Below are positions 2,528 to 62,300 of a DNA stretch of 64,000 nt, one piece after another. The notes beneath the pieces are model-generated. The model searched no databases. It saw only the letters and a list, made by a program, of their open reading frames with translations, and was not told the DNA's origin. Position numbers and translations under genes: made by a program. The DNA lies in contig MFPR01000014.1 in assembly GCA_001784175.1 (NCBI GenBank), positions 11,797 to 75,796 on the forward strand, in the 5' to 3' direction. Position 1 is the stretch's first letter. Each line of letters starts with the position of its first letter. Origin of the DNA: Candidatus Lindowbacteria bacterium RIFCSPLOWO2_12_FULL_62_27. GTDB lineage: Bacteria; Lindowbacteria; 2-12-FULL-62-27.

Positions 2528-3607
2528 TCAGGCTGAAACGACGACGCTGTCGGAGATTTTGTCGTGCCACGCCATCCGGCGGGCGTCCCAGAACGCCCAG
2601 AGGAAACCCAGAAACAGCGGCGCCGCGGAAAGATAATAGAGGACGCACCTCAAGAAGGCGCGTTTGAATCCGAGCGGCGTTCCGTCCGAGCCGACCACCC
2701 GGAGTTTCAGCAGTCGTTTTCCGGGCGTAGCGCCCTTTTTCCAAAGTAGGAGCGTCGAATATAGGATAAAGATCGCCTGCCAGAGAACGCCGCCCGCTTT
2801 TTTCAGTTTGCCTCTTCGGCGGTTGAGCGACTGCCTCTCTGCGTCGAGCGGATGGCCGGCCGGAATGTCGCCCGGCGCCTTGAATCCCTCAGCGGCCATC
2901 GCCCGGCGAAACTCCGTCTGGCCTTTATGGATTTTTGAGCGCGCGCCGAGCGTCAGAACAAGGACCGCCAGAAAAACCAGCACGGCGTCGAGGCCGAACG
3001 CCGCCGCCCGCCGCCATACGGACGCCGGGCGCGGCGAGAGCGCGACGCCCGAATCAAAAACGATCTCGGGCGCAGGCGCCGCCGGCGGCGATTCGCCCTC
3101 CCGCAGCACCCGGTATACTTTGATCTTGTGCGGGATTCCCTTGAGGACGCGATATCCGATCTCGGCGGACGGGACCTCGGATTTGTTCATGGCCAGGTAG
3201 GTGGCCTCGGTGAAGTATATCTCGTTGGCTTCGGCGATGCCCTCGATCCGGGCCGCGATGTTGACCGCCTCGCCGTAGATGTCGCCCTCCTCGAGGGTCA
3301 CCTCGCCCGTGTTGATCGCCACCCGGATCTCGATGCGGTCCGGTTCGGCGAGCGTGGCGTTGTGGGTTCGCAGGGTTTCCTGAAGCTCCATGCCGGTGAG
3401 AACGGCGTCGGTCGGACTTTCAAAGGTCACCAAAAACGCGTCGCCGATGGTTTTGATGAGTTTCCCGCCCCGGTTCTCGATCACCGGCAGAAGCAGTTCG
3501 CGGTGCCGGCGAAGCATGTCCATCGTCGCGCTTCGGCTCTGCCCGCTCGTCCGGGGAGTGAATCCCTTCATGTCGGTAAACACGATGGTGAGGTTCTTGG
3601 TATCCAC
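2528..3607 (-). CDS. Class III adenylate/guanylate cyclase fused to RDD membrane domain
   Basis: Residues 1-170 form a class III nucleotide cyclase catalytic domain. The metal-binding aspartates are visible (FTDMKGFT, D12; KTIGDAFLVTF, D56), as are the transition-state residues in VNIAAR (N116, R120), so activity is plausible. Residues from about 197 to 359 are an RDD-family domain with three or four hydrophobic helices, including the GATPGKRLLKLRVVG motif and a terminal WHDKISDSVV segment typical of RDD proteins. The cyclase would therefore be cytoplasmic and membrane-tethered at its C-terminus. Product (cAMP or cGMP) cannot be decided from sequence. It is convergent with rodA, 19 nt away, and divergent from rpmB. 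Confidence 0.85.
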   Translation of the reverse strand: MDTKNLTIVFTDMKGFTPRTSGQSRSATMDMLRRHRELLLPVIENRGGKLIKTIGDAFLVTFESPTDAVLTGMELQETLRTHNATLAEPDRIEIRVAINTGEVTLEEGDIYGEAVNIAARIEGIAEANEIYFTEATYLAMNKSEVPSAEIGYRVLKGIPHKIKVYRVLREGESPPAAPAPEIVFDSGVALSPRPASVWRRAAAFGLDAVLVFLAVLVLTLGARSKIHKGQTEFRRAMAAEGFKAPGDIPAGHPLDAERQSLNRRRGKLKKAGGVLWQAIFILYSTLLLWKKGATPGKRLLKLRVVGSDGTPLGFKRAFLRCVLYYLSAAPLFLGFLWAFWDARRMAWHDKISDSVVVSA

Positions 3608-3703: not shown

Positions 3704-3895
3704 ATGGCCAGAGTATGCGAGATTTGCGGCAAGGCGCCGGCCAGCGGGAACAACGTGAGTCACGCGCGCAACAAGACCCGCCGGCGATGGATGCCCAACC
3801 TACAGAAAATCAAAATCACCCTGCACGGCCGGGTCTGCCGGGCCAACGTCTGCACGCGTTGCATCAAGTCCGACCGGATCCGGAAAGCCGCCTGA
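3704..3895 (+). CDS. rpmB: 50S ribosomal protein L28
   Basis: A 63-residue protein beginning [20 protein letters not shown], the hallmark of zinc-binding L28 proteins. It carries the two Cys pairs (CEIC near the start and CTRC near the end) that bind zinc, and the conserved [12 protein letters not shown] segment. Length is normal for short L28 forms. It is preceded by a strong AGGAGG site. The gene stands alone: the downstream gene starts 125 nt later, beyond a long palindrome. Confidence 0.97.
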
Positions 3896-3966: not shown

Positions 3967-4018
3967 TGATATCATGATATCATGATAGCTATCATGATAT
4001 CATGATATCATGATATCA
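3967..4018. repeat. Perfect 44-bp palindrome built from TGATATCA units
   Basis: Positions 3967-3988 and 3989-4010 are exact reverse complements (22 + 22 nt, no loop, centred on AGCT), and one further TGATATCA unit follows at 4011-4018. Each 8-mer is itself palindromic. The last unit supplies a TGA stop at 4011-4013 in the frame of the next gene, whose first usable start codon is TTG at 4020. There is no T-run, so it is not an obvious intrinsic terminator. Confidence 0.95.
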
Positions 4019-4019
4019 C

Positions 4020-7000
4020 TTGGCTTCGGAGTCCTTTCCAGATGAACTGACGGGGGTTTTCCCGCCGGGGGACCCCGAGTCCCTGGAGGGGATGAGGCTC
4101 CTTAACCGGCTCCTCCTCCGGTTTTCACGGCCCCGCGAGGTTCTCCGGGGAATTGCCAATCTCGTCCGGTCCGGCGATCCACTGGTGGCGCCGCCGGAAA
4201 CGTTCCTCCACCGGCGATATGCACAGCAGTTTGAAAATTGGGATTACCCCGTGACGGTCCAGTCCCTGGTGGAGACGGAGGAAGGGCGGCTCCTGTCGTT
4301 GCCGCCCGGATCCCGGCGGTTTTCGAAGTTCCGCAGAATCATCCCGGACATTGTGAACCTCCAGCTTCAAGTCCGCTTCCCCCGCCTCCTGGCGGAACTG
4401 GCGAACCGGCCGAACCTTTTTTTTCCGGGCGTTTTTTTTCCGCAGGAGCTGGAGATCGGAAACATGGAAATGATCTCGGCTCTCCACGGGACATTTTATG
4501 TCGTCCACGCGGAGCTCAAGGTCGGGCGGCCCGCCGGGCGCGGCCAGCCGGCGTCGGTCGTGCTGAAACCGACGGACATGGCGCTGGAGTCGATCGTCAC
4601 GTTCACCCTGCAGTTCATCAACCGCCGGCTCGATCCAGCCACCCGGAGAAGCCTCGGGCCGATTCTGGCGCCCACCATTGTTTCGATCGACGACCGCTAC
4701 GGCATCATGGATCTCATCCCCGGCAAAAACGGCGTCGAGTTCCTTCCCCAGGGCATCCAGGCCGGGTCCATTCAGGAACTTCGCCGGAACGAGTTTCCGC
4801 CGGACCTCGATCTTTCGCGCGAAGAAGTTCTGCAAATTGCCCGTGAATTTTCCAAGCAGGCTGTGATGGCCTATTACCTCCGGCTGTACGACCGCAAGCC
4901 TGACCAGTTGATGATTCACCGGATCGAAGACGGTCCCGCGCGGGCGGCGCTCCAATTCGCGCACATCGATTTTGGCCGGGCCCTCAAACGGAATTATGCC
5001 CTGCCCTGGAAGCGCCACTATGATCCGACCCGGCCGCCGCTGGTGTTCGACGTTCACGAAATTCCATATTTTGAGGCCGCCGCCGCATTCATCTACCTTC
5101 CTCATTTCATTCCGGCGGATCTGAAGGACCGGTTGAGTCCGTTCGACGGCGAAATGCGGGAGGTGATCATCGAGACCTTTGTCCGGCTGGCGGGCGAAAT
5201 CAAATCGGAAGCGGACGAAATTCACTCGCTCCTCAAATACCTCATCGGCCGCCGGACCCAGTACCGGCCCGTGGAGGTTCAGGATATTTGTGTGGCGCCG
5301 GAGGACGTGGAGGAGGTCTATACCACGCTCATCGCGCTGGACGACCCGGAGGACATCATCGAATCGATCCTGAACCTGGCCTATCACGAGCGCGAAGGCA
5401 CGGCCGCGCTCCTTGCGGACGGCGACGACGAAAGCGGCGTCTATCGCCGGGCGCTGTTGTCCGGAGACCGCGTGACCCGCCTCACGGACCGATTGGACGG
5501 CGCTCACCCCTACCGGCTGCGGGACTATCGAACGCAGGGCCGGGTTTCGTACGACGTGGAACAGAAAAAACTGCGGATCCATTTTGGCGATCAACCGGAG
5601 CGCGTGATCGCGCACGTCGAGCGGCAGTATTCCGCCCGGCTGGCCCGCTTCATCCGCCAATACCCGGGCGACCCGCGCGGCGTCGAGCTTGAAATCGTCA
5701 GCGACGGAAGCGTCACCGCGCGAAAAGTATCGCCGGACGGCCGGACGGGGCTTCGGCAGAAGCTGCGGTTTCCGCCCGACATCATGCAGGAGATCAACGA
5801 ATCCGGGTCGGGATTTTCGCCCGCCGCGCACGTTCTGGCGCACGCCGCCGACTACAAGATGCGCCCGGCCGCCGACGACTACCTGCTGGATGAAATCGAC
5901 AAACATCGGCGGATCATTGCCAACGATCTGGAAGGCCGGGAAATCCTCCAGTTCATGATGGCGACCGAGCCACCCGGCCATCCGCTCAACGCCGCCATGG
6001 CGGAGATGGTCCGGTACCTGCTGGCCAATCCGGATTACCTGGCCGACAAGGACCCCTACGAGAGCATCAATCAACTGGTCCTGTCGCTGGCGCGCAAGCA
6101 TCTGCAACGGCGATGGCCCGGCGGCCGCGCGATGATCGAGGAATTTCTGCCGAAAAACTTTCTGGAGGCCATCCACCCGCTGGGACTGCCGATCCTCGGT
6201 CTCTACGAGCATGTCGACCTGTCGCATTTCATCCATCTGATCCTCACGGTCCGGCTGGCGGACGAGCTGGGCAGGCGAGCCGCCCTGGCGCCGGCCGAAC
6301 TGAAAATCCTCCGGACGGCCGCCTTCCTCCACGACCTGAACGTCATGGACGTGCATTTCCGGGAGGCGTTGATGGAGCCCAGCGGCCGCTTGAACCGGCC
6401 CATTCTCGCGCAGGTGATGGAACGGCACGCGGAGATTGCCGCGGAGATTTTTGAAAAGTCCCTGTCGGAACGGAAAATTTCCGCGCCCGACGGCATGACG
6501 GCGGAGATGCTGCTTCACATCCTGAAAAACCATCATCGCCCCTCCGGCCGGGTGGAGCAAATCCTGCACCTCGCGGACAACATCGCCGTCTTCGCCGACC
6601 GGACGCGTCCCGATCACTGGAACCGGGGTTTTTTGCGGCTGGAGGAGATCGCACCGCGATGGATCGACGCCCAACTGGAGCGCAAGCTGATCGACCGCGA
6701 GGTTTGGTCCGCGGCCCAGGGATTTTTTTCCGATCCGAAAAACTACGCGCTCCTTCGCGAGCTGGACCGCATGTCGGCCTTTTTCCCCCAGGTGTTCGCC
6801 GCCCTCCAGATGGCCGCCGCGCTGCACTTGGGTCTCAATCCCCAGCACACCAATCCGATGGCGGACCTGCGCGAGCGCCACGGGGAGGATCTGGTCAACC
6901 GGATCTTCGACAATCTCATGAAGTCCGGCCTGTCGGTTCGGGACAAGATCAAGGTGTTGAACCGGACCGACGCTATCGCGCCGATGTTTCGGAAGGAAAC

Positions 7001-9164
7001 CGTGTCGTCCTTCGCGTTCATCAACGCCGCCATTCAGCCGGTCCAGCGCATGGTTGAACTCATTGTCCGGTTCGTAACGGAAGGCCGGACGGTCATCCTG
7101 ATGGGGATTCTGCCGCGCGTGATGAAGACGTACCAGCGATTCCGGTCCCGGTACGCGGGCGACACCGCGCGGGAAGGGCGGCGGGACTGGGAGCGGGTGT
7201 GCGTGATCGCCGGCGTGCGGCGGCTCCAGTTCATCACGCATTCGTATCCCTACGAGGCTGACTTCAGGATGCCGTTTCACAAAATCATCCGGACGTTCCG
7301 CGAGTCGCGCGGCGTTCAAGAGCCCTGCTGCCTGATCCCCTTCGAGCGGTTCATGGAATCATACGCGCCGACCGCCGACGCCGAGACCCGCGTGCGGCAG
7401 CTCGAGAAGGCGTCCGATGTCGAAGAATTGCGGGGATCCGACCATATCCGCGCGGAAGCCGGGCGGTATCTCCAGTGGGAGAGCGCGCATCCGGACCGGA
7501 CGTTCGACGATCGGGCCAAGGAGCGGTTTCGGAGGATCCTGCTGAGCAACTTCACCAACCGGGACGTCCTTCTGTTCTATGATGAAACCGTCCACGGCGA
7601 CGTCTCGTTCACAAAGGCGCTCCGGGAGGTCATCGGCGCGCTCCACGAAAATCCCAATTACCTCAGCGACCGCTCCGTCTACTACAGCCTGCAGGAACTG
7701 GTTCGATCGTTCGGCCAGATCCATTTTTACGGAAAGGGTGCGGCCGACATTACGGCCGATCTCGGGAAATTCCTCAAGGCCGAGGGACTCGCGACGTGCG
7801 CCGGCATGGCGCGGCTCCTGGACGCGCTCAAACCCCAGTTCACCTTCGCCAAACAGAACCTCTCGGTCAGCCTCCAGATTGCAGTGGCGCTGGGCCGGCG
7901 CTGGGAAAAAACCGCCCGGACAAAACTTTCGGAGGATGACTGGCGGGCGATCACCGCCGGGATACTGCTTTCCGGCACCCTCCTCGACGACGAAACCCTC
8001 GCCGATTACGCGCTGTCGCCCGAAGACATCTCCGCCAACCGCGCGCTCCGGCATCTTTTGTTTGACGCCCGGCCGCCCCTCTGGTCCCTCATCCGCCGCC
8101 GCAACGACCTGCCGGGGGCATTGAAGGATTCCGACGAGGCGCGGTTGCGCCGGCTGTTTGACGACAGCCCGGTCGATCCGGCCGACGCTGTGCCGTTCCT
8201 GCTGATCCACACCGGGCTCATTTTCGGGTCGTATTGCGATTTTTCGAAAGTTGAAAACTGGAAACGCGGAAAAATCGTCATCTCGGCGGAGGACCTCGAG
8301 TTTCTCTGGGAACTTCTGCACGGCGCATTTCAGGCCCACGGACTGAAACCGCCGGCCCGGTTCGATGAAAGCTTGCGGGCCTTTTGCAGGAAACCCGGGC
8401 CGGCCCTGCTGAACGCCCATGCCGCCAAGACCCATTCGTATGTCCGGCTCTTCAATGCGCTCAGCCTCGCGGCTGAATTGCGATACGGCCTGAAAGCGCG
8501 CGGATTCGATCTCTTTCACCACGTGCGGACCATCTTCGGCGGCAAGGTCGCGGATCTCGTCGTGGAAGGCATCATGACGGCCGATTTCCCGCTCCGCGAA
8601 AAGGTCAAGTTTGCCCGAAAGCTCCGGCTCCTCGCAGCGGCCGTCCAGGAGGAGCGGGGACTGCCGGCGCGGCTCATGTTCATTCACACCGAACAGCCGC
8701 TGGGCGCGCCGCCTGTCCGGGATATCCGGCGGGCCCTCCGGATCGGGCCGGCCGCCGGCCGCGCGCCGGCGCTGATGGTGCCGTCGGGGGATTTTGATCG
8801 GACGGAGCGGATGTTCTCATACCTGTGCGCCCGGTTCGACCCGCAGGAATTCCGGGATTTCCGCCGACAGGCCAAATTCCTGGTCGGGGAGGATTATCCG
8901 CTGCTCATCAAGGAAAAAAGTCTACAGAAAACGGATTGGTTCCGGGACCGGATCGCCGCGTTTCGAAAAAGCCGCAACCTCTCCAGCCGCCACCTCTTCG
9001 TACCCGTCAGCGAGCTTACGGATCCCGGCCCGTCCACGGCCGGCGTCAGAGACGCCGGCACTTGGGGCGCCGGAGGCGCTGACCCGGGCGGCGGCATTCC
9101 GGCCGCGCGGGGAGGCGACAAGGGCCTCTTTTTCTTCAGGACGTGGATGCAGTTGTTTGATTAA
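4020..9164 (+). CDS. Giant PI3/PI4-kinase-like plus HD phosphohydrolase-like protein
   Basis: 1714 residues if the TTG at 4020 is used; an in-frame ATG at 4092 (residue 25) preceded by GGAGGGG is an alternative. N-terminal third: a PI3/PI4-kinase-like core with VVLKP (K183, candidate ATP lysine), a YGIMDLIPGKNG hinge-like segment, a catalytic loop DRKPDQLMI (D291; Q296 replaces the usual Asn) and HIDFG (D317). Middle: an HD domain with H736, H771-D772 (FLHDLNVMD), H803, H838-H839 and D853, arranged as in HD-GYP proteins but without GYP. The last third (from about residue 1165) looks like a second copy of the region from about residue 625, with S1318-G1319 replacing His-Asp. No signal peptide or membrane segment is evident. 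Followed at 27 nt by a glycosyltransferase. Substrate unknown; HipA-like or other atypical kinase relationship is possible but the HIDFG motif fits PI3/PI4 kinases best. Confidence 0.7.
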   Translation: MASESFPDELTGVFPPGDPESLEGMRLLNRLLLRFSRPREVLRGIANLVRSGDPLVAPPETFLHRRYAQQFENWDYPVTVQSLVETEEGRLLSLPPGSRRFSKFRRIIPDIVNLQLQVRFPRLLAELANRPNLFFPGVFFPQELEIGNMEMISALHGTFYVVHAELKVGRPAGRGQPASVVLKPTDMALESIVTFTLQFINRRLDPATRRSLGPILAPTIVSIDDRYGIMDLIPGKNGVEFLPQGIQAGSIQELRRNEFPPDLDLSREEVLQIAREFSKQAVMAYYLRLYDRKPDQLMIHRIEDGPARAALQFAHIDFGRALKRNYALPWKRHYDPTRPPLVFDVHEIPYFEAAAAFIYLPHFIPADLKDRLSPFDGEMREVIIETFVRLAGEIKSEADEIHSLLKYLIGRRTQYRPVEVQDICVAPEDVEEVYTTLIALDDPEDIIESILNLAYHEREGTAALLADGDDESGVYRRALLSGDRVTRLTDRLDGAHPYRLRDYRTQGRVSYDVEQKKLRIHFGDQPERVIAHVERQYSARLARFIRQYPGDPRGVELEIVSDGSVTARKVSPDGRTGLRQKLRFPPDIMQEINESGSGFSPAAHVLAHAADYKMRPAADDYLLDEIDKHRRIIANDLEGREILQFMMATEPPGHPLNAAMAEMVRYLLANPDYLADKDPYESINQLVLSLARKHLQRRWPGGRAMIEEFLPKNFLEAIHPLGLPILGLYEHVDLSHFIHLILTVRLADELGRRAALAPAELKILRTAAFLHDLNVMDVHFREALMEPSGRLNRPILAQVMERHAEIAAEIFEKSLSERKISAPDGMTAEMLLHILKNHHRPSGRVEQILHLADNIAVFADRTRPDHWNRGFLRLEEIAPRWIDAQLERKLIDREVWSAAQGFFSDPKNYALLRELDRMSAFFPQVFAALQMAAALHLGLNPQHTNPMADLRERHGEDLVNRIFDNLMKSGLSVRDKIKVLNRTDAIAPMFRKETVSSFAFINAAIQPVQRMVELIVRFVTEGRTVILMGILPRVMKTYQRFRSRYAGDTAREGRRDWERVCVIAGVRRLQFITHSYPYEADFRMPFHKIIRTFRESRGVQEPCCLIPFERFMESYAPTADAETRVRQLEKASDVEELRGSDHIRAEAGRYLQWESAHPDRTFDDRAKERFRRILLSNFTNRDVLLFYDETVHGDVSFTKALREVIGALHENPNYLSDRSVYYSLQELVRSFGQIHFYGKGAADITADLGKFLKAEGLATCAGMARLLDALKPQFTFAKQNLSVSLQIAVALGRRWEKTARTKLSEDDWRAITAGILLSGTLLDDETLADYALSPEDISANRALRHLLFDARPPLWSLIRRRNDLPGALKDSDEARLRRLFDDSPVDPADAVPFLLIHTGLIFGSYCDFSKVENWKRGKIVISAEDLEFLWELLHGAFQAHGLKPPARFDESLRAFCRKPGPALLNAHAAKTHSYVRLFNALSLAAELRYGLKARGFDLFHHVRTIFGGKVADLVVEGIMTADFPLREKVKFARKLRLLAAAVQEERGLPARLMFIHTEQPLGAPPVRDIRRALRIGPAAGRAPALMVPSGDFDRTERMFSYLCARFDPQEFRDFRRQAKFLVGEDYPLLIKEKSLQKTDWFRDRIAAFRKSRNLSSRHLFVPVSELTDPGPSTAGVRDAGTWGAGGADPGGGIPAARGGDKGLFFFRTWMQLFD

Positions 9165-9190
9165 ACGTGATGAGCTAAAGTTCGCGGAAC

Positions 9191-10219
9191 ATGAATATGA
9201 ATGCAGCGGCGCCGTATGTGTCCGTGATTGTTCCCGTTCACAATCAGGCGAATTTGCTCCAGAAACTCCTGCGATCGATCTGGTCGGAGGACATGCCGAC
9301 CGGATCATACGAGGTCGTCGTCACGGACGACGGGTCCGCCCGGCCCGTCCGGGAGGAGCTGGAGCAGGCATTCCCGGACGTGGTGCGCGGCCGGCCGCTC
9401 CGGATGCTGCGGCACGAGCACTCGAAGGGCGCGGCGGCGGCGCGGAACACCTGCTGCGCGGCGGCCGCCGGCGAGGTTCTGTTTTTCCTGGACGCCGACA
9501 CCATCATCGAAGCGGGATCCCTGCGCAGAGTCCATGACCGGTTCCGCTCGGAGCCGGCCTTGGGCGCCGTCAACGGCGGTGGAGCGATGGACCCGGCCAA
9601 TCCCGAAGACGGATTCACGCCAAGATACCGCGCGCTGCTCGACCACATCCAGCAGAACCGCCGCGCGCCGGTCGCGTGCACTTTCTTCACGCCGCGCTGC
9701 GGCGCCGTCCGGAGGAAATTCTTCGACGCCTGCGGCCAGTACGATCCGAGCTTTCCGGGCGCGTCGGTGGAGGAATACGAGTTCGGCTACCGCCTCGCGC
9801 GCCATACACCCATCGCATTTGATCCGCAGATCAACGTCCTGCACCATTACCAGAAATTCTGGAAAAACAACCGGAACTTTTTTTCCCGCGTCCGGTTCTG
9901 GATGCGGCTCTTCCGAAAACACAAAAAATTCGAAAACTTCGGCTCGGTCACCAGCTACTACGGCGCCGGTTCCGTCCTCGGCGCGATCGCCGCGCTGCTT
10001 CTGCCGTTCGTTTGTTGCCGCATGGGGATCGCGATCGCGTGCCTCATCAGCTTCAAATTGTTTTTGATCTGCTACGCCGAACTCTTCATCTGGACCTTCC
10101 GGCTCAAAGGCCTCCGGTTCACGATCCGGTCCATCCTGCTCTCCTGGTGGCTCTGCCTCTTCATCACCGCCGGCGCCCTCGCAGGCGCGATCGATGGTCT
10201 TACGGGGAAATCCGATTAA
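9191..10219 (+). CDS. Membrane-anchored family 2 glycosyltransferase
   Basis: 342 residues. The GT-A core is clear: VSVIVPVHNQANLLQKLL at the start, TDDGS at 45-49, RNTCCAAAAGEVLFFLDADT with the DXD metal site at 101-103, and a later EEYEFGYRL segment that fits the catalytic base region (usually ED). The C-terminal 100 residues contain about three hydrophobic helices with a WWLCLFITAG segment, so it is membrane-attached with the active site in the cytoplasm. Acceptor and sugar cannot be inferred. It begins 27 nt after the kinase/HD gene and may be cotranscribed; no good ribosome binding site precedes the ATG, and a second in-frame ATG lies two codons on. Confidence 0.88.
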   Translation: MNMNAAAPYVSVIVPVHNQANLLQKLLRSIWSEDMPTGSYEVVVTDDGSARPVREELEQAFPDVVRGRPLRMLRHEHSKGAAAARNTCCAAAAGEVLFFLDADTIIEAGSLRRVHDRFRSEPALGAVNGGGAMDPANPEDGFTPRYRALLDHIQQNRRAPVACTFFTPRCGAVRRKFFDACGQYDPSFPGASVEEYEFGYRLARHTPIAFDPQINVLHHYQKFWKNNRNFFSRVRFWMRLFRKHKKFENFGSVTSYYGAGSVLGAIAALLLPFVCCRMGIAIACLISFKLFLICYAELFIWTFRLKGLRFTIRSILLSWWLCLFITAGALAGAIDGLTGKSD

Positions 10220-48935: not shown

Positions 48936-50380
48936 AAATCGAGCGAGAACTTCAGGCGCATATAATTTTCAGCCCCGCGGTTCGTATACGCGGGGCCGGG
49001 CGAGAACCGGCCGAATTTGAACTGGTAGCTGATGTCCACGGCGGCTTTCCAAGCGACCGTCATGTCAAACTCCGAGCCGATCTTGCGAGACGATCCGGCG
49101 CCGGACGAAATGTAGGGATCCGACGTCACACCGGATGCCTTATCGCGCGAGTAAAGGTAGTACGTCGGCTGAACGGACATATCCGACCACAGCCGGTTGG
49201 CAGACCATCCAAACGGTTTCACGCTGGCGCCGAATTTGTAGACTTGGATATTGGTCAGCTGCGGGGCAAGCGCATATCCGAGCGTCAATCCGCCAAACGA
49301 GATGAACCGCTCATCCTTGCCGGCCGTGCTTCCGCCGAATGACGAGTTTGCGCTTCCCTGGGCGTCGCCGTCGCCGCTGCCGGCGGCGTACTCGACATAG
49401 AAACTGGGCGCCATGGCCGTCGCGAAGTAATACCGCAACCCTCCGTCGATCGCGCTGGATGAAATGCTGACTTTTGTAGTTCCGCCCGATGGATACGTTT
49501 TGCCGGACTCCTGAATATACATCGACCAGTATCGCAGATTGCCGATCACCCGTCCCTCAAATCCCAACCCGTAATAGAGCGAATCCAATTGATGGGGTTG
49601 GCCGGTTGCGGGATTGACGGATTCGTCATTCCGGTCCTGATTCATAAGCCCGAACAGATCCAGTGTCTGGGTCTTCATGAATTTCACTTTCCATTCCATA
49701 CCGTAGAACCAGCGTTTGGTCCGGCCCGATCCCGGTGAGAAATTGTCGATGTTGTCATCTGAAGGATTCTGCCGGGCGAAAAACACCTGAAACTCATTGA
49801 TCCGTGAAAGGGCCTTGTAATGCAAACCGTCAACCGTGAGTCCAAACGATATGCCGCGTTCGACCATGACGAACTGCCGGCCGAGCGTGATCTGATGTTT
49901 CCAGCCTCCCGCCGGATACTGTTGTTGCAGATACAGGAGATCGACCGCCGGTCCCACCATATCCCGGCGCCGGACTGCGCCTGTTGGCGTGGAATTGAGA
50001 GACTGGGTGGCTTTCATGCGCGCGTAAAATTGCGTCTTGCCTGACCGGCTGGCGACGTTGGTGAAAAATCGAAAATCGTTCTCCCACGTGTGGTCGAGGG
50101 AATCCTGCGCGGCCACATTCCTGTCGTTTTCGTCAGACGACGAATAAGATGGCGCGTACCAGCCGCCGAAATTCATGCGCCAGCCCAAACCGCGTGCGAG
50201 GCCGCGCGTGACCCATGAGGAGCTTCCCGAAAAATCCTGTGTGCGCTTGAGTTCGTCGAGCGTTTCAACCCGCTCCCGGCGGAGTTCTTCCTGGGACATC
50301 TGCGCGTATGAGCCGGCAGAAACCATGAGCCAGAAGCCGGCAGCCAGAATGAAAATCCCGATTCTGTATTTGACACTCAT
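48932..50380 (-). CDS. Outer-membrane beta-barrel protein (alginate-export-like)
   Basis: 482 residues. A signal peptide (IGIFILAAGFWLMVSAGSYAQ) is followed by a barrel of alternating aromatic/polar strands: WRMNFGGWYAPSYSS, WENDFRFFTNVASRSGKTQFYARM, HQITLGRQFVMVERGISFGLTVDGL, YGLGFEGRVIGNLRYWSMYI, and the end NYMRLKFSLDL. The GRQ..V...G...DG motif resembles the alginate-export (PF13372-like) porin family. It starts with a 4-nt overlap (ATGA) with the giant gene's stop, so the two are cotranslated; it could be that protein's export channel or a surface anchor. Confidence 0.75.
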   Translation of the reverse strand: MSVKYRIGIFILAAGFWLMVSAGSYAQMSQEELRRERVETLDELKRTQDFSGSSSWVTRGLARGLGWRMNFGGWYAPSYSSSDENDRNVAAQDSLDHTWENDFRFFTNVASRSGKTQFYARMKATQSLNSTPTGAVRRRDMVGPAVDLLYLQQQYPAGGWKHQITLGRQFVMVERGISFGLTVDGLHYKALSRINEFQVFFARQNPSDDNIDNFSPGSGRTKRWFYGMEWKVKFMKTQTLDLFGLMNQDRNDESVNPATGQPHQLDSLYYGLGFEGRVIGNLRYWSMYIQESGKTYPSGGTTKVSISSSAIDGGLRYYFATAMAPSFYVEYAAGSGDGDAQGSANSSFGGSTAGKDERFISFGGLTLGYALAPQLTNIQVYKFGASVKPFGWSANRLWSDMSVQPTYYLYSRDKASGVTSDPYISSGAGSSRKIGSEFDMTVAWKAAVDISYQFKFGRFSPGPAYTNRGAENYMRLKFSLDL

Positions 50381-53300
50381 CTAGCCACCGCCAGCTTGTC
50401 GACGAGTTTCGTGCCGGGCGTTTCGAGGATGTAAATGTAAACTCCCGACCCGACTTTCTGGCCAAACCGGTTGGTCGTATCCCAGATGACCAGATTGGAT
50501 CCGGGATTTCCCTGGTGCTTGAATTCCCGCACGAGCCGGCCGCCGACATCGTAGATTTTCAAAGTCACGTCACCGGCCACCTGCAGATTGTATTTGAACG
50601 TCATGCTGCCGGTTGTACCGTCCGGCCCGGGATTGGGGTATACGAACGTCTGGCTCTTGTCGAGATTGGGCGACAAAAACGCGCCCAGATATTCGGGCAA
50701 TCCCACCGCGACTGTCAGTTTCAACGACGATCCGGCGGCAAGAACGGCGGACGAGGATTTGCGCAGATTCACCGGCCCTTGCGGCAAACCCACGAGATAG
50801 GCGCCGTATTTTTCCGGCACGGATTCAAGATTGTTCCAATTTAACAGGATGTTGTCCTTCAAATCGCTCGACACACCCAATGACCAGCTCCTGGCGGTTG
50901 TCACCGGTTCCGCGTAGGCCGCCGCGAGTCTGTTGCCGTTCTCTGCCACAACTCCAAGCGAGACAAAATTGCTAGCCACCGGCGGCGGCTCGTATCGTTC
51001 AGCGGCGGTCGCTTCTTCCGCTTTTGAAACGACGCCGATATAATTCTGAAAATCCTGCATGCCGCCGGCCGCGGCGGTAAGTTGGATCGTCCAGTTCTGG
51101 TCCGACGCGGCATCCTGCTGATAGACCGCCGACAAAAGTTTAGGCGCCTGATTGAGAACCTCGGCGGCCGTTTCGGGTGGAACGGATGGGTTGGGATAAA
51201 TCGTCATGTTGCAGGCTTTTTTCGCGTACATAAAAAATCCGACCGTCGGTTTCAAATGTATTGCCGACAGGGATGGCCGATTGATATCCGGACCCCAAGT
51301 ATAGTCACTTGATCCGTTCCACCAATAGACAGCATTCTGGATTAATCCGGCGGCCTCGGCCTTGGCCGGCGTTAGTTTTTTGTCGCCGGTATCAAACCGG
51401 ACATCCGAGTCCCAGCTCACATAGAAATACTGCCCGCTGCCGACCTGATGCCAACCAGTCTTGAGGGCCACCGTTATGGTGTCATAACCGGCGGTTCCCT
51501 GGAAATCGATCGTGCCGCTCGCATTTTGCGGATCAAAGATCCAGTACCCGCGGCCGCGAACCAGCGCGGAGGGCGTGACATAGTCGCGTTCTCCTGCCGC
51601 CGTTCCCGCATCCTGATTCCATTCCCCGATGTTGGAGAGCGGAAATTTGGCTTTGATCGCATTCTGAACATCCGCGACCGTCAGCGACTTGTTGGGCGCG
51701 ATCATCTTGAACACCGACTTGGATATCTCGAGTCCGTCCGCATACGCCACAAAAGCATCCTTGAGCGCGGAGTTCGACGCAACGGTAACAGCGACATGGT
51801 AGGGTCCGCGACGGGCGCCGAGCGTCAGCGTGTCACAGGCCATCCCGCTGTTGTCCGTGATGACGGTACTCAGCGCCAGACTCGCTCCCGCGCCGCCCGC
51901 GGGGACGGCGATCGAGAACGTCACGGCCTGGCCCGGGACGGGATTACCGGTGTCGTCTTTCAACACGACGCAGAGCGGGCTTGGCAAGATTGTGGAGTGC
52001 GTGCCCAACTGGTGGTTGTTGAGAAGAATGATCTTTGTCGGCAACCCCGGAACCGCAACCCTGAACCGCCTCGACGTAGAGTTCAATCCGACATTCCGCA
52101 ACCGGTCAATGGCCCGGACACGCCAGTAATACGTGCCGTCGCTAAGATTGGCCACGGTGTCGCTCGTCCTGCTTGCAGAAACCGTGTCAGCAAACAGCAA
52201 ACTCGAAAATGTCGGTGAGCTTGAAAGCTCCAACACGTAAGAATCGATCCCAACACTATCGGCAAGATTCTTCCACGACAGAACCGGTCTCGATGTCGTC
52301 GTTTCCTGTTGATCCGCCGGCGAGGCCAACTCCACCCTGTCGGCGTGGGTGTCCAGCAGAAAGACGCGCACGGCGGTATCGACCTTCCCGACCCGGTCGC
52401 GGCCGATGACCCGCCAATAGAATGTGTCCTCGCTTGAAATCCTTCTGACGATGCTTGCGGCGCTCGTATCCACCACGCTGTCTGTGAGGACGGAGAAAGA
52501 CGCCGCGTTCGACATCTGCCAAGTATACGTCTCGGCGTCGTCCGTCGACCACGAGAACGTCAAAATGGCCGACGTCGTTTCCAATCCGTTGCCGGGCGAG
52601 GCAAGAATAATCTTCACGCCGGTATCAAACCGGAAGGCAAAGGTCGTCGAGTTAAGACCAATGTTTTTCAGATGATCCACCGCGCGCACGCGCCAGTAAT
52701 ATGTATCCTCCTCGGTCAACGCCGGTACCGTATCGGTCGTCAGCGAGCCGCGGACGGTATCGACAAAGACAAACGACATAAACGCGGATGTCCGGGAAAC
52801 TTCCACGACGAAACTGTCGATCCCGACACTGTCCGACACACTCTGCCATGTGAGCGCCGGCTTGGTATCCACGATCGCAACCCCGTTTGCGGGCGATACC
52901 AGCGTCACTTGAACGACAAACGTGTCGATGACCAGGCCGCGCGGCGACGAGTAGGAACTCAGGTTTCCGAGTTTATCGATGGAACGAATGCGCCAGTAAT
53001 AGGTATCGTTGGCAGACAGGATGAGCGTGTCGCTGGTCCGCGTGCCGACGATGGTATCGGCGAATACAAGAGATGAAAACGAAGGAGTCAGTGACACCTC
53101 AATCACGTAACTGTCGATGCCCACGCCGTCGATGACGGCGCCCCAGCTCACGACCGGTCGGACGTTGGTCGTCTCGTGGCCGTCGGCCAGCAGCAGAGAC
53201 GAAACCGCCGCCGCATCCGTATCGACAACCAGCCGGCGGGACGGCGGCGAATCAAGTGTGTTTCCGAGTTTGTCGATTCCTCGCACTCGCCAGAAGTACG

Positions 53301-56300
53301 TGTCGTTATACAGGCCGGTCAGCGTGTCGGTCGTGCGGTTTGAAGCCACGGTGTCAACGAACACCAGCGTCGAAAACGCCGTTGTCTTGGAAACTTCAAC
53401 AACGTAGAAATTAATACCGACACTGTCGGCGAGAGAGAACCAACTGACAACCGGTTTGACGTTCGTGGTTTCATGCGCATCGGCCGGCCGGTCCAGCAAA
53501 ACCTGCCCGGCGGATGTATCGACAACAAACCCTCGTGCCTGGGAATTGGCTCCAATATTTCCAAGCCGATCTATGGCTCGGACACGCCAGAAATATGTGT
53601 CATTATAAAGGTTCGACAGAGTGTCGCTGGTTCGCAGTCCCGAAACGGTGTCAGTAAAAATGAGAGCGGTGAATAACGTAGATTTGGACACTTCGACGAT
53701 GAACGAATCGATGCTGACGCTGTCTGCGAGGGCAACCCAGGACACAAGCAGTTTAGTGTTCGATGTTTCATACCCATCTGCCGGTGAAAGAATCGAAACC
53801 TGTCCTACAGACGCATCCAACATCACCGAGCGCGCCGCTGTCGTATCAACGGCGCCGTATGTGTCCTTCGCAATGACTCGCCAGTAAAATGTGTCCTCGT
53901 AGGGCAGATTTCGCACAAGAGCAGTTACTTTTGTATCGACCACGCTGTCTGCGGACGTAGAAAACGACGATGTCCTAGAGAGCTGCCAGGTGTAGGTTTC
54001 CGCCGTTGGAGAAGACCATTCAAACCTTAGCCATATCGAATTAGTCTCGTATCCGCTCGCGGGTGATATGGCGGTGACTGACACAACCGTACTTACCTTC
54101 GTGCCTTTCGTGTCGGTGAAAAACGATTGATTCATCCGCGTGGCGGCGTCAAATGAAGTGAGTCTATAAAAATAGGTGTTCCCAGCGGCGACTGCGGTGT
54201 CGATCCAGCTTGTGTCCGACGCACCCGCCGTCCAAACGAGATTGGCCGGATTGGCCCAGTTGTTGGTATCCGCCACATTGGTCAACCTGTATATGTTTAC
54301 GCCGGCGTGTCCCACGGATCCGCCGTTGGTTTCTTCATTGACTGTCGGAATCGTCCATGTAATTTGAATCTGGCCGGCGGTGACTGTATCAAGGATCACA
54401 GTTGCCGGAGGCGCCGGCGCGGTGGTGTCGGCGCCAGCAGATGTGTCTGCGGGACCGAGACGATAAGGCACATACGTGACAGAACCCCCTGCAGCGTTTT
54501 TCAATCGATTGGCTATCGCCAGCTCGTCGGTAGTGCTCCACCAGTTTCTGCTAAAATTCACTGTTTGGTTTGTTCCATTGAACACACCGCTGTCCCTGTT
54601 CACCGACGCTGGGGTAATGTTATTTTTCACGATTGTGTTGGCGGTGGATGTTCCATCCAAATAGAACTGATATCCACCATTAGAATCTGATGCATTTTGA
54701 ACAAAAACATTCGTTTCTGCGGAACTCAAATAGTACCCATGACTGAAATTGCTCGTGCTCGAGTTGTTGGAAAGAACATTTGAACTGGAGGTTGACAACC
54801 ATACCCCGAAATACGCGTTCTGATGGGCCCGGTTATTGTCCAATTTGTTGTTATTGCTTGCGCCATTCAGAAAAAAGCCGTATTGGGCGTTGCCTGCACT
54901 GTAATTGTCCATTAAAATATTGCTCGCGCACGAAATATTTAGAATAAATCCCGCCGCACTATTTCCAACGCTTTTGTTATTTTTTAGGATATTACTGTTC
55001 GCATTTTGCAAGAGAAAGCCGTAGGCGAGATTGTTTGAGCAGGTGTTGCCAATCAATGTGTTCATATTACTGTACGCGTTCAAAAAGATGCCGGAATTTG
55101 AATTGTCCACAACAAGGCAATTAATAATAGAATTCGAATCCGAATTATTGGTCAGGGTAATTCCCAAATCTCTGCTCAAACGAACCGTCACATTCTCCAG
55201 AGTCGAACTGTCAACGTTTACCCATTCGATACCGGCATGGTAATTGCGTATCCCAAGGTTCTTGACCAGAAGTCCTGATTGGGTGTCCGCAAATATTCCC
55301 TTGCGGCCCAAACTGCTATCGCCCCCCTCTAAAATTGTCGATGCCGAGTCCACGCCGATAATCGATATTCTATTTGTATCGATCACAATTGTTTCCGAAT
55401 ATATTCCGGCATCCACAAATATCGTGTCCCCCGATTTGGCTTTTTGAAGTGCTTTGGCAACGGATCGATATGGTTTCGAAGGCGAACCCTCGCCGCCAGT
55501 GTCAGATCCGAAAGCATAGGTGTAAGAATCTTCTACCACGTAACTGTCATTCACGTACCACTTCGGACCCGCATATGGGGCTGGGGTAGTGATCGCAAAT
55601 GTCTCTTCGGGCGCCCACACCGACCGCATCATGCCGCCGTCGACAGCCTGGACGGACCAGTAGTAGGCGCCTGCCGGCAAGGATCGGATGAGATAAGCGA
55701 AGGTGTCGTTCTGCACATTGCCGAGGATGGTGTTGCCGATTGAATCAGAGCTGTTGGTATCGGCGGCGACGATGTCGGCTTTGCCGGGGGCGGAACCGAC
55801 TCGCAGGTTGTACGTCATGGCATTGGCGGACGTGGAGTCGGTGGTGACTTTGGACCATGTGAGTACCATGGTATCACCCTGTAAAAACGATACGCCCTTT
55901 GGACTCAACAATGTCGGCATACTTGGTCTAATATTCATTGAACCGTTGGCATCGTTACGAAAGAGAATCAATCGATATGTTCCTGTACTTGATTGTCCAG
56001 AAACCGCCAAATCAAGGTCGCCGTCATTGTCGTAATCACCCCACTGAATTGAACTGTAATCGACACCTTGATTGACGCCCATGGGCTCTGCAACGTTTGT
56101 AAAACTATCGATTCCGTTATTCCTATAAATAATCACTCGCCTGCTTCCAGAGGCGGCAAGGTCAAGGTCTCCATCGTTATCGTAATCACCCCACTGAATC
56201 GAGCTATACGCAAGACCCACGTTCACGCCCAACGGTTCCAACACATTGATGAAATTATCACCGCCCGAGTTTCGAAATATAATAAACCGTTCACCACTTG

Positions 56301-59300
56301 TTATGCTGCGTCCGGAAACCGCAATATCCAAATCGCCGTCGTTATCGTAGTCACCCCACTGGATGGATCCATCATATACCCCCACACTGGCCCCCATTGG
56401 TTCAGCAACCTTTGCAAAACTATCGCCACCATTATTTCTATAAATGATGAATCTATAGGATGCACCATCATATCCAGAAACGGCCAGATCAAGATCACCA
56501 TCTCCGTCATAGTCACCCCACTGAATAGAACTCTCATCAAGACCTGATCCCGCGCCCATTGGTTCTGCCACTTTTGTGAAGGTCGTATCACCATTATTTC
56601 GATACAGGACCAATCGTCTGACTACTCCATCGAACCCAGAGACAGCCAAATCCAGGTCACCGTCATTATCGTAGTCACCCCACTGAATTGACCCTTTGTC
56701 GACCCCTCCCATACCGGGACTTGTCGGTTCGACGGCGCTTGTAAAACTACCCCCACCACTGTTTCTGTAGATAACCAATCTTCTGGTTGAATTATCATCA
56801 AACCCCGAAATGGCCAGATCAATGTCTCCATCGTTGTCATAGTCGCCCCACTGGATCGAACTCCTGTCTACACCTCCACCAGGTATCAAGGGCTCGGCCG
56901 CATTTGTAAAGCTACCGACGCCGTTATTACGAAAAACAATCAAGCGTCGATACAGCCCATCCTGTCCTGATATCACCAAATCCAAATCCCCATCTCTGTC
57001 GTAATCACCCCACTGAATAGATCCGTCATACACTCCTGAGCCGGCTCTGACCCCCATCTCCGTGTCTAGTGTAAAGCCAGAAGGCTTGGCTGATACGATG
57101 CTGTCGGAGTAAAAAGATTCATTCGGAATGGTAGCACTATCCCTGGTGGTAATCCTGTAGTGGTGCGCCATACCTAGTGTTGCGGTTGTGTCTGTATAGG
57201 TTTGTCCCGAACTTGTTCCAATCCGAATCCAGCTCGACGTATCCACCATCGGCGCGCGATAAACTTGATACTGGTATACGGCTGGCACACCCGTGACACC
57301 TTCTTCATTCGCCGACACAGACGACCAACTCACATTCACCTGCCCCGAACTCTGCGGTGCTGTCGCCACTACCGTGTCTGGCGCTTTGGGTGCAACCGTG
57401 TCCACTCCTAGCGCTGTGTCCACAGGCCCGAAACGATAGGGAAGAAATGACGAGGCCGTATCCCTGACCCTTGCCGCTATGACTGACTCATCCGTCGAAC
57501 CATACCAGTTACGCGCGATGTTCTGCACCAACCCAGACGAGTTGCCGATTGCGGCGATCGTGTTGTTGTAAAAGTTGTTCTTGGCAATCGTATTGTTCCT
57601 TGTCGTTCCGTACAACCACACGCCGGAGTCGCCGCCGGCGACGTCGTTTTGCGCGATCGTGTTCGTATCGGCATTATAAATAAATGCGCCGGCCCGGGTG
57701 TTGGATGCGATGCGGCAATTCGAGACCAGGTTGTCGTTGGAGGAGCCGCTGATATAGACACCGTAGAGCGAATTCGTCAGGATCGTATCGCCGATGATGC
57801 GGTTGCCGCCTGAACTACTTTCGGCCGCGATGCCGTATTGGGAATTGGAACTTGCGGTATTGTTGATGATGGTGTTGGCTGTGCAGGAGGATATCAGATT
57901 AATGCCCACAGAGTTGCCTGTGGATGAGTTATTTTGAATCAGGTTGGAGCTCGAACCCGATACGATGTAAATGCCTCTATAGGTCGAGGAGATGGCGTTG
58001 CCTTGAACGACGTTGTTCGACCCGGCCTGCAATATAATGCCGTCGCTTGTCGGCCCACTCACCGTGTTGACCGTTACTGTGCATCCTTGGCCGTAGTACA
58101 GCCCGATCCCCCAGTTGCCGTTCGACGCGGAGGTGTTGCCGGAGACGGTGTTGTTCCATCCGGACACAAAAATGCCGTTGGTGCCGTTGGATTTCGTGGT
58201 GTTGCCACTCACCAGGTTACTCGAGCCGTAGAGATGGATTCCGGAGCTGTTGGCCATCGTGCCGTTCGTGTTAAAACTACCGATGTTGTTCGTCAGGGTA
58301 TTCGAATCGCATCCGTTCAGGAGATATATCCCGTTGTTGGTGGAGCTTACGCTGTCCGAGACGATGGCCGACAGATCGACATTCAGGAAATGAATTCCGA
58401 TGAGCGCGCCTGTCACGCCAATGTTTTTGACGGTCAGGCCGACTTGGGTGTCGGCATAAATGCCGTAGAGACCAGAAACTGAACTATCGCCGGGCGGGTC
58501 GATGACCGTGGCGCCGGAGTCCTTGCCGATCAGCGAAATATAATCGGTGTCGATGACGACAGTTTCCGAGTAGAGGCCGGCGTCAACGTAGATCGTGTCG
58601 CCAGACTTGGCCTTTGACAGTGCTTTGGCGATCGAGCGGTAGGGGAACGTCGAAGAACCATTGCCAAGCGTATCGGACCCGGCCGAATAGGTATAAGAAT
58701 CCGCCGCAGTATACTGATCGTTCACAAACCATTTCGGGCCGCTATAGGAAGAAAGGACGATAAACATTTCGGGCGCGGGCCACACGGATCGTTGCATGCC
58801 GCCGTCCACCGCTTGGGCGGACCAGAAATATTGGCCGTGGGGGAGATTCTTCAAAGATGCCGTCGTACCGTTCTGGACATTCCCGAGGATTGTGTTTCCG
58901 ATGGAATCAGATGAATTTGTATCTGCGGCGGCAATATTCGTGCTTAGCACAGTGGTGCCGACCCGAATATTATAGGTCTGAGACGCCACGGGTGTTGCAT
59001 CTCCCAGCGCGGAGGTCCATGCAAGTGTTACCGTATCGATCTGACTGAAGGTCGTACCTTTCGGAGAAACAAGAGTTGGCGCCGGCGGTCTTACGTTGGA
59101 AGGACCAGTTAAATCGTTGCGATAAACTACGAGCCTGTACTGCGATGTCGCGGAGTTATAACCGGCGGCGGCAAAATCAAGGTCGCCATCATTGTCGTAA
59201 TCGCCCCACTGGACGGATGAATTCCCATTACTGCCATCGACCCCGGCGTTTACTCCCATGGGTTCAGCAACATTCGTGAAGTTGTCTGATCCATTGTTTC

Positions 59301-62300
59301 TGAAAACTATTAATCGTGAAGAAGATGGACCATAACCGGAAACGAGCAAATCAAGATCTCCGTCGTTGTCATAGTCTCCCCACGCAATCGACGATCGCTG
59401 AACGCCGGTGAGGCTTGCCACATTGGTAAAAGTATTTCCGCCGTCATTTCGATAAATGATCGTTGATGCGCCACCCGGCTGAGCGAATCCGGAAACCGCC
59501 AAGTCCAAATCACCGTCGTTGTCATAGTCTCCCCACTGGATTGATGACAACTGCAGCCCGCTTGTAGATCCACCCAGCGGTTCCGCAACATTTATAAATG
59601 TTTCTCCGCCGTCGTTTCTATAGACGGTCAATCGATAACTGGTTGAGTTGTCCAATCCGCTAACTGCAAGATCGATGTCACCGTCGTTGTCGTAGTCACC
59701 CCACTGGATTGAACCCTTATATACGCCAACATTGACCCCCATGGGTTCTATAGCACTTGTGAAAGTACCGCCCCCGTCATTCCTATAGATAATCAGACGC
59801 GGCGATGTTGAGTTAATGGGCAATATCGTTCCAGAAACTGCAAGATCGAGATCGCCGTCATTGTCATAATCACCCCACTGTATAGAAGCATAGATGAGGC
59901 CTCCCCCTTCCCAAACATTCGTAAATGTTCCACTGCCATCATTTCGAAAGATGGTTAATCTTAGGCCTGATCCAACCCCGTCTCCCGCGACAGCCAAATC
60001 AAGATCCCCGTCTTTATCATAGTCACCCCATTGGACCGAACTTTGATGTACGCCCGCATTTGCCCCCATCGGCTCTGCGGCATTTGTGAATGTCCCGGCG
60101 ACGTTGCGATAAATGATCAGCCGGGCGCCGGATCCGGATGTGCCTGAAGTGACCAGATCCAAGTCACCGTCGTTGTCATAATCTCCCCATTGAATTGAGG
60201 CACTAAAAAATCCCGTTCCGGCTCCATACGGTTGTGCAACCAGTGTCCACACGGAAGACGAGGCACTTGCTGCAGCTTGAGTCGTATCCGAAAAAAAGCT
60301 CTGGTTCACAGGCGATCCTGCGTCATAAGATGTCAGTCGGTAGTAATAGGTATTTCCCCCTGTAACCGCATTGTCATTCCATGTGGTTTCCGTCGAGGTC
60401 GCTGTATATACGAGATTGGCGCCGTTAGCCCAGTTGGTAGTATCAGCCAGATTCGTCAGGCGATAAATCTTCGCCCCGCTGTAAGCGACCGCGCCCCCGT
60501 TCGTTTCTTCGTTGATCGTGGGTATAGTCCACGAGACTTTGATTTGTCCTGCGGCACTTGCGTCAAGCGTGACATTGGCTGGTGGGGCAGGGGCGGTCGT
60601 GTCTACTCCTGCAACTGTATCTACGATACCCAATCGGTAGGGAATGAAGAATACGGAGTCGCCGTTCGATTCTTGATAAATCTTACGCTTGATGGACACC
60701 TCGTCCGTCGTGCCCCACCAGTTGCGTATGAACGAGAATCTGTTTCCTGTGACGGTCGATGCGACGTATACACCGCTGTCCGGATTTTCCGGGGTGGTTC
60801 GGATGATATTTTTTTGGACAGTATCAGAGTGCGATGCTCCCACAATTTTGAATTGCCACAGGCGATTTGAATCAAGCGTGTTCTGGACGAAAACATTCTT
60901 GTTGGATGCGTTCAATAAAACGCCGTGCGAATTGTTGAAGCTGACGTTGTTTGAAAAGAAATTATTATCCGAGGAACCAAGTGCGATTCCTTCGGGATTA
61001 CCGATGACACTATTGCCGTGGAATACGTTGTTGCTGTTCAGATAATCGAGATAAATCCCGTATGTCCCGTTTGAGGTAAACGTGCTGCCCAGGACCGTAT
61101 TGTTGTCGGAATACGAAAGACGCATGCCGTCTTGGGAATTGCTCGTGGATTGTGAATTCTGAACCAATACGTATGTACAATGGTCTAAATCAATCCCAAT
61201 CTGTTCGTTACCGGTACTGACGCACTTTTCAATTGTGTCCGCCGAGGAGTAATAAGCATAAATCCCAAACCCACAGTTGCGAGTAGTTATATTTTCAATG
61301 CTGGATCGCGATACGTTGTCCAGGCGAATACCGTAGAATCCTCTTTGAATGAGAAGATTGCTTATTCTGATGGCAGAACGATTGGCCGCATATATGACCT
61401 TCAAATTCGATCCGGAACTGCTGTCACCGGCGTCGATGATTGTACCTGTCGGACTTGAATCGACTCCAATAATCCATATGGAATCGATACCGATCGTGAA
61501 GGATTCGGGATAGTGACCCCGGTCGATAAGGATCGTATCGCCCGCTTGGGCAAAGCTCAGCGCCTTGGCCGCCGTTCGATATGGTGAATTCTTCGTGCCG
61601 GTACCCGACGTGTCCGAACCACTGGCATACGTATACGAGTCCGACCCGGACACGTATGTATCATTCACAAACCACATTGTTTTCTGGGCATATGCAGTTT
61701 TCGTGTCGGAATTGAAGAAAGACTGATTTGTAATGGATGCCGAGTCGAACGAGGTTATCCTGTAGTAATAATTATTGCCGGTGGTGACGGTCGTATCGAT
61801 CCACGACGATTCAGAGGCTGTGGCAACATGAACCAGATTGACAGTATTCGCCCAGTTTGACGTGTCAGGCAAATTTTTCAATCGATAAATTTTAGCGCCT
61901 GTGTATCCGACAACACCGCCGTTGGTTTCTTCAGTCGTCGAAGGCCCAGCCCACGTCAATTGGATGGACCCGTCCGATGTGGCGGTAACCGTGAGCACCG
62001 GCGGAGCCGGCGCGGTTGTGTCGGCGCCCTGGGTGGTGTCCACCGTCCCGAGTCGATACGGTATGAAGACAATAGAGTCAGCACCCGTGGGAGCGCCACT
62101 CACCATTTTCTTAATCTTTATTTCATCGGTTGTATTCCACCAGTTGCGGGTGAAGGTGAATTTGTTAGCCGCGGCCGTCGAAGCATTGTACACTCCGCTG
62201 TCAGGATTGGTTTGCGAGGTATTGATATTGTTCTTTTGAATCGTATCACTTGAAGACGCGCCATCAAGATAAATTTGATATTTGACATTTGAATCCAATG

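Follow-up and report, generated by a model that had tools for sequence, protein, structure and literature searches.

A PI3/PI4-kinase-type domain and an HD hydrolase domain are joined in one conserved polypeptide of 1714 residues, an assignment that sequence comparisons support well. The open reading frame lies at positions 4020 to 9164 (forward strand) of the window, the 64,000-nucleotide stretch of a Candidatus Lindowbacteria genome analyzed here. The domain architecture is new and built from known superfamilies. The frame exists as claimed in the initial annotation of this DNA, and the residues singled out there (K183, D291 within DRKPDQLMI, D317 within HIDFG, H736, H771-D772, H803, H838-H839 and D853) are found at those positions. 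The proposed PI3/PI4-kinase-like and HD domains are borne out by Pfam matches, by an alignment to VPS34 and PI4KB, and by a complete set of metal ligands. A second, degenerate HD module had gone unremarked. The earlier statement that no such system was known is in line with the openly licensed literature, where no description of such a kinase-HD fusion was found.

Homologues and gene neighbors, which the initial annotation proposed to search, were recovered in both other available genomes of the same family. The window's genome (G000) comprises 4.39 Mb in 44 contigs, and the two relatives are 88% (G001) and 81% (G002) complete. Their homologues (JAHFCY010000092.1 and JACQOF010000102.1) are full-length and share 59-69% identity. 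In G002 the gene is one uninterrupted frame, and in G001 it is split into two contig-end fragments, which overlap with small differences and are consistent with a single fusion. The frame is under coding selection, because third codon positions change about twice as often as the first and second (0.52-0.55 versus 0.17-0.31). An antisense frame of 1064 codons (4125-7319) was rejected, given that the forward frame shows the coding pattern in both base composition and substitutions. The exact start codon, annotated as TTG, is uncertain because the homologous frame in G002 has no ATG, GTG or TTG ahead of the conserved N-terminus. The most hydrophobic 19-residue segment has a mean of 1.39 and none reaches the level of a membrane helix, so the protein should be cytosolic. 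In some 380 additional genomes, related at the domain level only, profile searches recovered no homologue. The profile matches of other genomes to the C-terminal half cover the HD region alone. A weak match in G152 was judged to be due to chance, as the matching stretch of this 487-residue protein precedes the kinase core. A contig scan with two short peptide patterns, which distant relatives could escape, matched only the two known relatives. Within the set of genomes searched, the full architecture appears to be restricted to this lineage.

The kinase-type catalytic core spans residues ~140-420 (positions 4437-5279, forward strand), and the match extends over this whole core, as supported by Pfam, profile alignment and motif spacing. 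The Pfam family PI3_PI4_kinase (PF00454) matches residues 272-326 of the window protein with an E-value of 4.2e-5 and 24.0 bits, just below the cutoff of 27.1, and the G002 homologue exceeds this curated cutoff in the genome scan (28.7 bits). The family was detected in three of four sequences scanned, the fourth being without the kinase part, and is present in all three genomes. For residues 140-420, the alignment of the three homologues was run with hhalign against a profile built from two sequences, VPS34 and PI4KB. The letters used for both enzymes agree with their PDB entries, apart from the first two residues and another single residue in PI4KB, for which those of the PDB were taken. The score of 29.0 was not equaled in any of 200 column shuffles (best 21.7), and the hhalign probability of 21% is low, in keeping with the shallowness of the profile. 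The similarity is remote (27% over 147 columns). The catalytic lysine K183, the hinge (~229-232), the DR-x loop (DRKPDQ, 291-296) and HIDFG (315-319) follow in the same order as in VPS34 and PI4KB and with near-identical spacing: 46 residues separate K183 from the hinge, against 45, and 108 separate K183 from D291, against 107. Aligned pairs include VVLKPTD with VIFKHGDD around K183, YGIMDL with HGFMQF at the hinge and DRKPDQ with DRHLDN, continuing to HIDFG. PDB sequence searches returned no credible match (best E 0.07-0.4). AlphaFold models of residues 9-590 from three sequences and of residues 586-1714 from two sequences had mean pLDDT values of 40.3 and 37.3, too poor to use.

The window kinase differs from VPS34 and PI4KB in being bacterial, in being fused to HD modules, and in carrying Gln296 in place of the metal-binding Asn of DRHxxN. 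No helical or C2 domains were recognized in the protein, unlike in PI3/PI4 kinases. The substitution had already been noticed in the initial annotation, and it is invariant in the three homologues. A catalytically dead or altered domain might therefore serve as a nucleotide sensor controlling the HD phosphohydrolase, which would then be the sole enzyme. This is the main rival explanation and we consider it rather doubtful, since K183, D291 and D317 do not vary either and few parts of the protein are as well conserved as this core (70-80% per 50-residue block). There is also a precedent for an Asn-free loop. Small bacterial PF00454 proteins with open frames of 241-284 residues, which we take to be SCO1664-like, have DRK in place of DRH and a DRKxGH loop without Asn, so a dead enzyme does not follow from loss of the Asn by itself. 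These proteins are otherwise unlike the window kinase in being small and stand-alone and in carrying IYKPxxGExP and IDHG. A profile comparison of the window kinase with six small bacterial DRKxxH proteins scored at noise level (19.7), which places the window kinase nearer to the type-III enzymes of eukaryotes. Further PI3K-like proteins were seen among bacteria. A distant bacterium (G229, L047) encodes a 4836-residue open frame with at least three PI3K-like catalytic motifs in 1116 residues, namely DRHLGN..NIDLD and two variants. In G118, a 492-residue protein (L041:1378-2856, reverse strand) is similar to type-II PI 4-kinases (4hnd and 4wtv; E ~1e-12 to 1e-11) and adjoins an open reading frame on the other strand.

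A lipid was among the targets first proposed for the kinase, and a genuine phosphoinositide kinase combined with a phosphatase domain would fit the fact that PI3K and PI4K are the nearest characterized relatives by sequence. The loop following HIDFG also contains invariant basic residues (KRN...WKRH), and in class I PI3Ks the basic residues of this loop serve phosphoinositide binding. However, none of the three genomes, of which G001 and G002 are incomplete, yielded an inositol-1-phosphate synthase (Inos-1-P_synth); of 14 known genomes in the control search, 6 were positive. On these grounds a phosphoinositide substrate is unlikely. No lipid-binding or membrane segment was recognized either, and we regard a lipid kinase as very unlikely.

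The C-terminal part of the protein consists of two related modules. Module A (residues ~627-1119, positions 5898-7376, forward strand) matches the Pfam family HD (PF01966) at residues 737-855 with an E-value of 7e-7 and 29.9 bits, above the cutoff of 22, and includes a C-terminal segment in addition to this HD domain. As in HD superfamily phosphohydrolases, every ligand position is filled in module A (H736, H771, D772, H803, H838, H839 and D853), which makes it an active-looking HD domain as judged from its residues. The initial annotation had staked its reading on the conservation of D291, D317 and the HD residues, and all of these are invariant among the homologues. The best-conserved 50-residue block of the whole protein (residues 851-900, 86%) has the last ligand, D853, near its start. 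Module B (residues ~1167-1673, positions 7518-9038, forward strand) was recognized by self-comparison with BLAST (E 2.7e-9, 20% identity over 493 residues) and hhalign (probability 98.5%), and by mapping of the ligands. At the ligand positions module B has S for H771, G for D772, R for H803, S for H838, P for H839 and L for D853, and H736 aligns with a gap; W867, R869 and G870 are retained. A tandem duplication with loss of the ligands in the second copy makes the protein a kinase, HD and pseudo-HD fusion.

The histidine order led to an initial comparison with HD-GYP proteins. The order itself holds, but the GYP loop is missing, with NHHRPSG running directly into RVEQILHLAD, and no HD-GYP model was among the Pfam and NCBIfam matches. 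Module A is hence not an HD-GYP protein. The ligand-less tandem copy and the fused PI3K-type kinase further set the protein apart from PF01966 phosphohydrolases, HD-GYP proteins included. We attribute a weak match to the Cas10/Csm1 model TIGR02578, which fell far short of the cutoff of this model (E 0.0012), to general similarity among HD domains. The kinase and the HD domain could act on different substrates of one pathway, for instance in the response to a nucleotide second messenger with the HD domain as a phosphodiesterase. The ligand order H..HD..H..HH..D resembles that of nucleotide-cleaving HD enzymes, and the window contains, at positions 2528-3607 of the reverse strand, a gene for a protein with a class III nucleotide cyclase domain (guanylate/adenylate) and an RDD membrane domain. 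Yet this cyclase gene runs in the opposite direction, and in G001 and G002 no such gene was seen beside rpmB. Together with the missing GYP loop and the unmatched HD-GYP models, this makes separate substrates in one pathway unlikely.

The gene rpmB, encoding ribosomal protein bL28 (3704-3895, forward strand), lies immediately upstream in all three genomes and is the sole neighbor common to them. This adjacency, kept in three genera, suggests an old core gene that is vertically inherited. A family-2 glycosyltransferase gene (9191-10219, forward strand) lies downstream, and the gap is 26 nt (9165-9190) rather than the 27 nt first given. The glycosyltransferase had been proposed as a possible partner. 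It adjoins the gene in G000 and G001, and in G002 its position is taken by a gene for a TPR protein in reverse orientation, so the link is weak compared with that to rpmB. The neighboring genes point to no pathway. Defense systems include large multidomain enzymes with HD domains, and a part in anti-phage defense or in a mobile element could be considered on this basis. Such a role is extremely unlikely, as PADLOC gave no match, PHROGs gave none that was significant, and searches of phage, plasmid and viral-contig collections found no homologue; the conserved position beside rpmB also argues for a core gene.

Dispersed repeats flank and enter the gene. Positions 3967-4021 (forward strand), between rpmB and the open reading frame, form a near-perfect palindrome built from repeated TGATATCA units, which overlaps the TTG start. 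The strong hairpin predicted across the TTG in G000 has a free energy of -40.6 kcal/mol (z -7.2) and adds to the doubt about this start codon. Palindromes of this kind (AAAGTGATATCATGATATCATGATAGCTATCATGATATCATGATATCACTTT type) occur at about 15 loci in G000 and in similar number in G001, with none in G002, and the copy beside the kinase-HD gene has the same position in G000 and G001. A role of the palindrome as a regulon signal was rejected, since it is a dispersed element found at many loci. A second, GC-rich repeat of about 50 bp (GGCCGGCGTCAGAGACGCCGGCACTTGGGGCGCCGGAGGCGCTGACC...) lies in frame within the C-terminal linker (approximately 9038-9110, forward strand). It is scattered in G000, present in G002, and found in both orientations, often within open frames, resembling palindromic elements inserted in genes. 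At positions 50377-63978 (reverse strand) the window also contains a 4533-residue repetitive open frame with repeats such as GGSFANVAEPMGINAGVYNSSIQWGDYDNDGDLDLAVSG.

Transferase and HD hydrolase domains share one chain in GlnD and RelA/SpoT, where they make and reverse one modification or messenger. The window protein likewise joins a transferase-type domain and an HD hydrolase in one polypeptide. Its transferase appears by sequence to have a kinase fold, unlike the nucleotidyltransferase or synthetase folds of those enzymes, and no shared sequence family was matched. Action of transferase and hydrolase in one process is the economical reading because the fusion and both sets of active-site residues are conserved. 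We suggest, tentatively, a large soluble enzyme of signaling or metabolism in which the kinase modifies a non-inositol target, the HD domain removes the group, and the pseudo-HD module regulates or dimerizes. The N-terminal domain would bind ATP and transfer phosphate to this target, or might transfer another part of ATP given the change from Asn to Gln. Module A would act as a binuclear-metal phosphohydrolase that removes the transferred group or hydrolyzes a related phospho-compound, and the decayed module B, having no metal ligands, could form the regulatory or dimerization half. Both activities would then serve a single process, whether they share a target or act on connected targets, in the manner of GlnD or RelA/SpoT. 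We infer catalysis by both domains, their opposing action and the control by module B. That the protein makes and erases one modification, as first proposed, is plausible from its domains. Two fused domains need not share one substrate, however, and the Gln in the loop of all homologues speaks against kinase activity. It is rather unlikely that the protein stands for a new class of bifunctional bacterial regulators, a PI3K-type parallel to GlnD and RelA/SpoT, whose kinase would modify a non-lipid target and whose HD domain would undo this under control of the decayed HD module.

To our knowledge, bacterial PI3/PI4-type cores resembling the eukaryotic type-III enzymes have rarely been recognized outside injected effectors. 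Here, such a core is found in a core and apparently vertically inherited gene, fused to a possible counter-enzyme. A little-known phylum of groundwater bacteria thus carries a conserved giant soluble kinase-HD fusion, a combination that appears undescribed. If active, the protein would be a new way of combining a transferase with a hydrolase and would be relevant to the diversification of the PI3K superfamily beyond eukaryotes.
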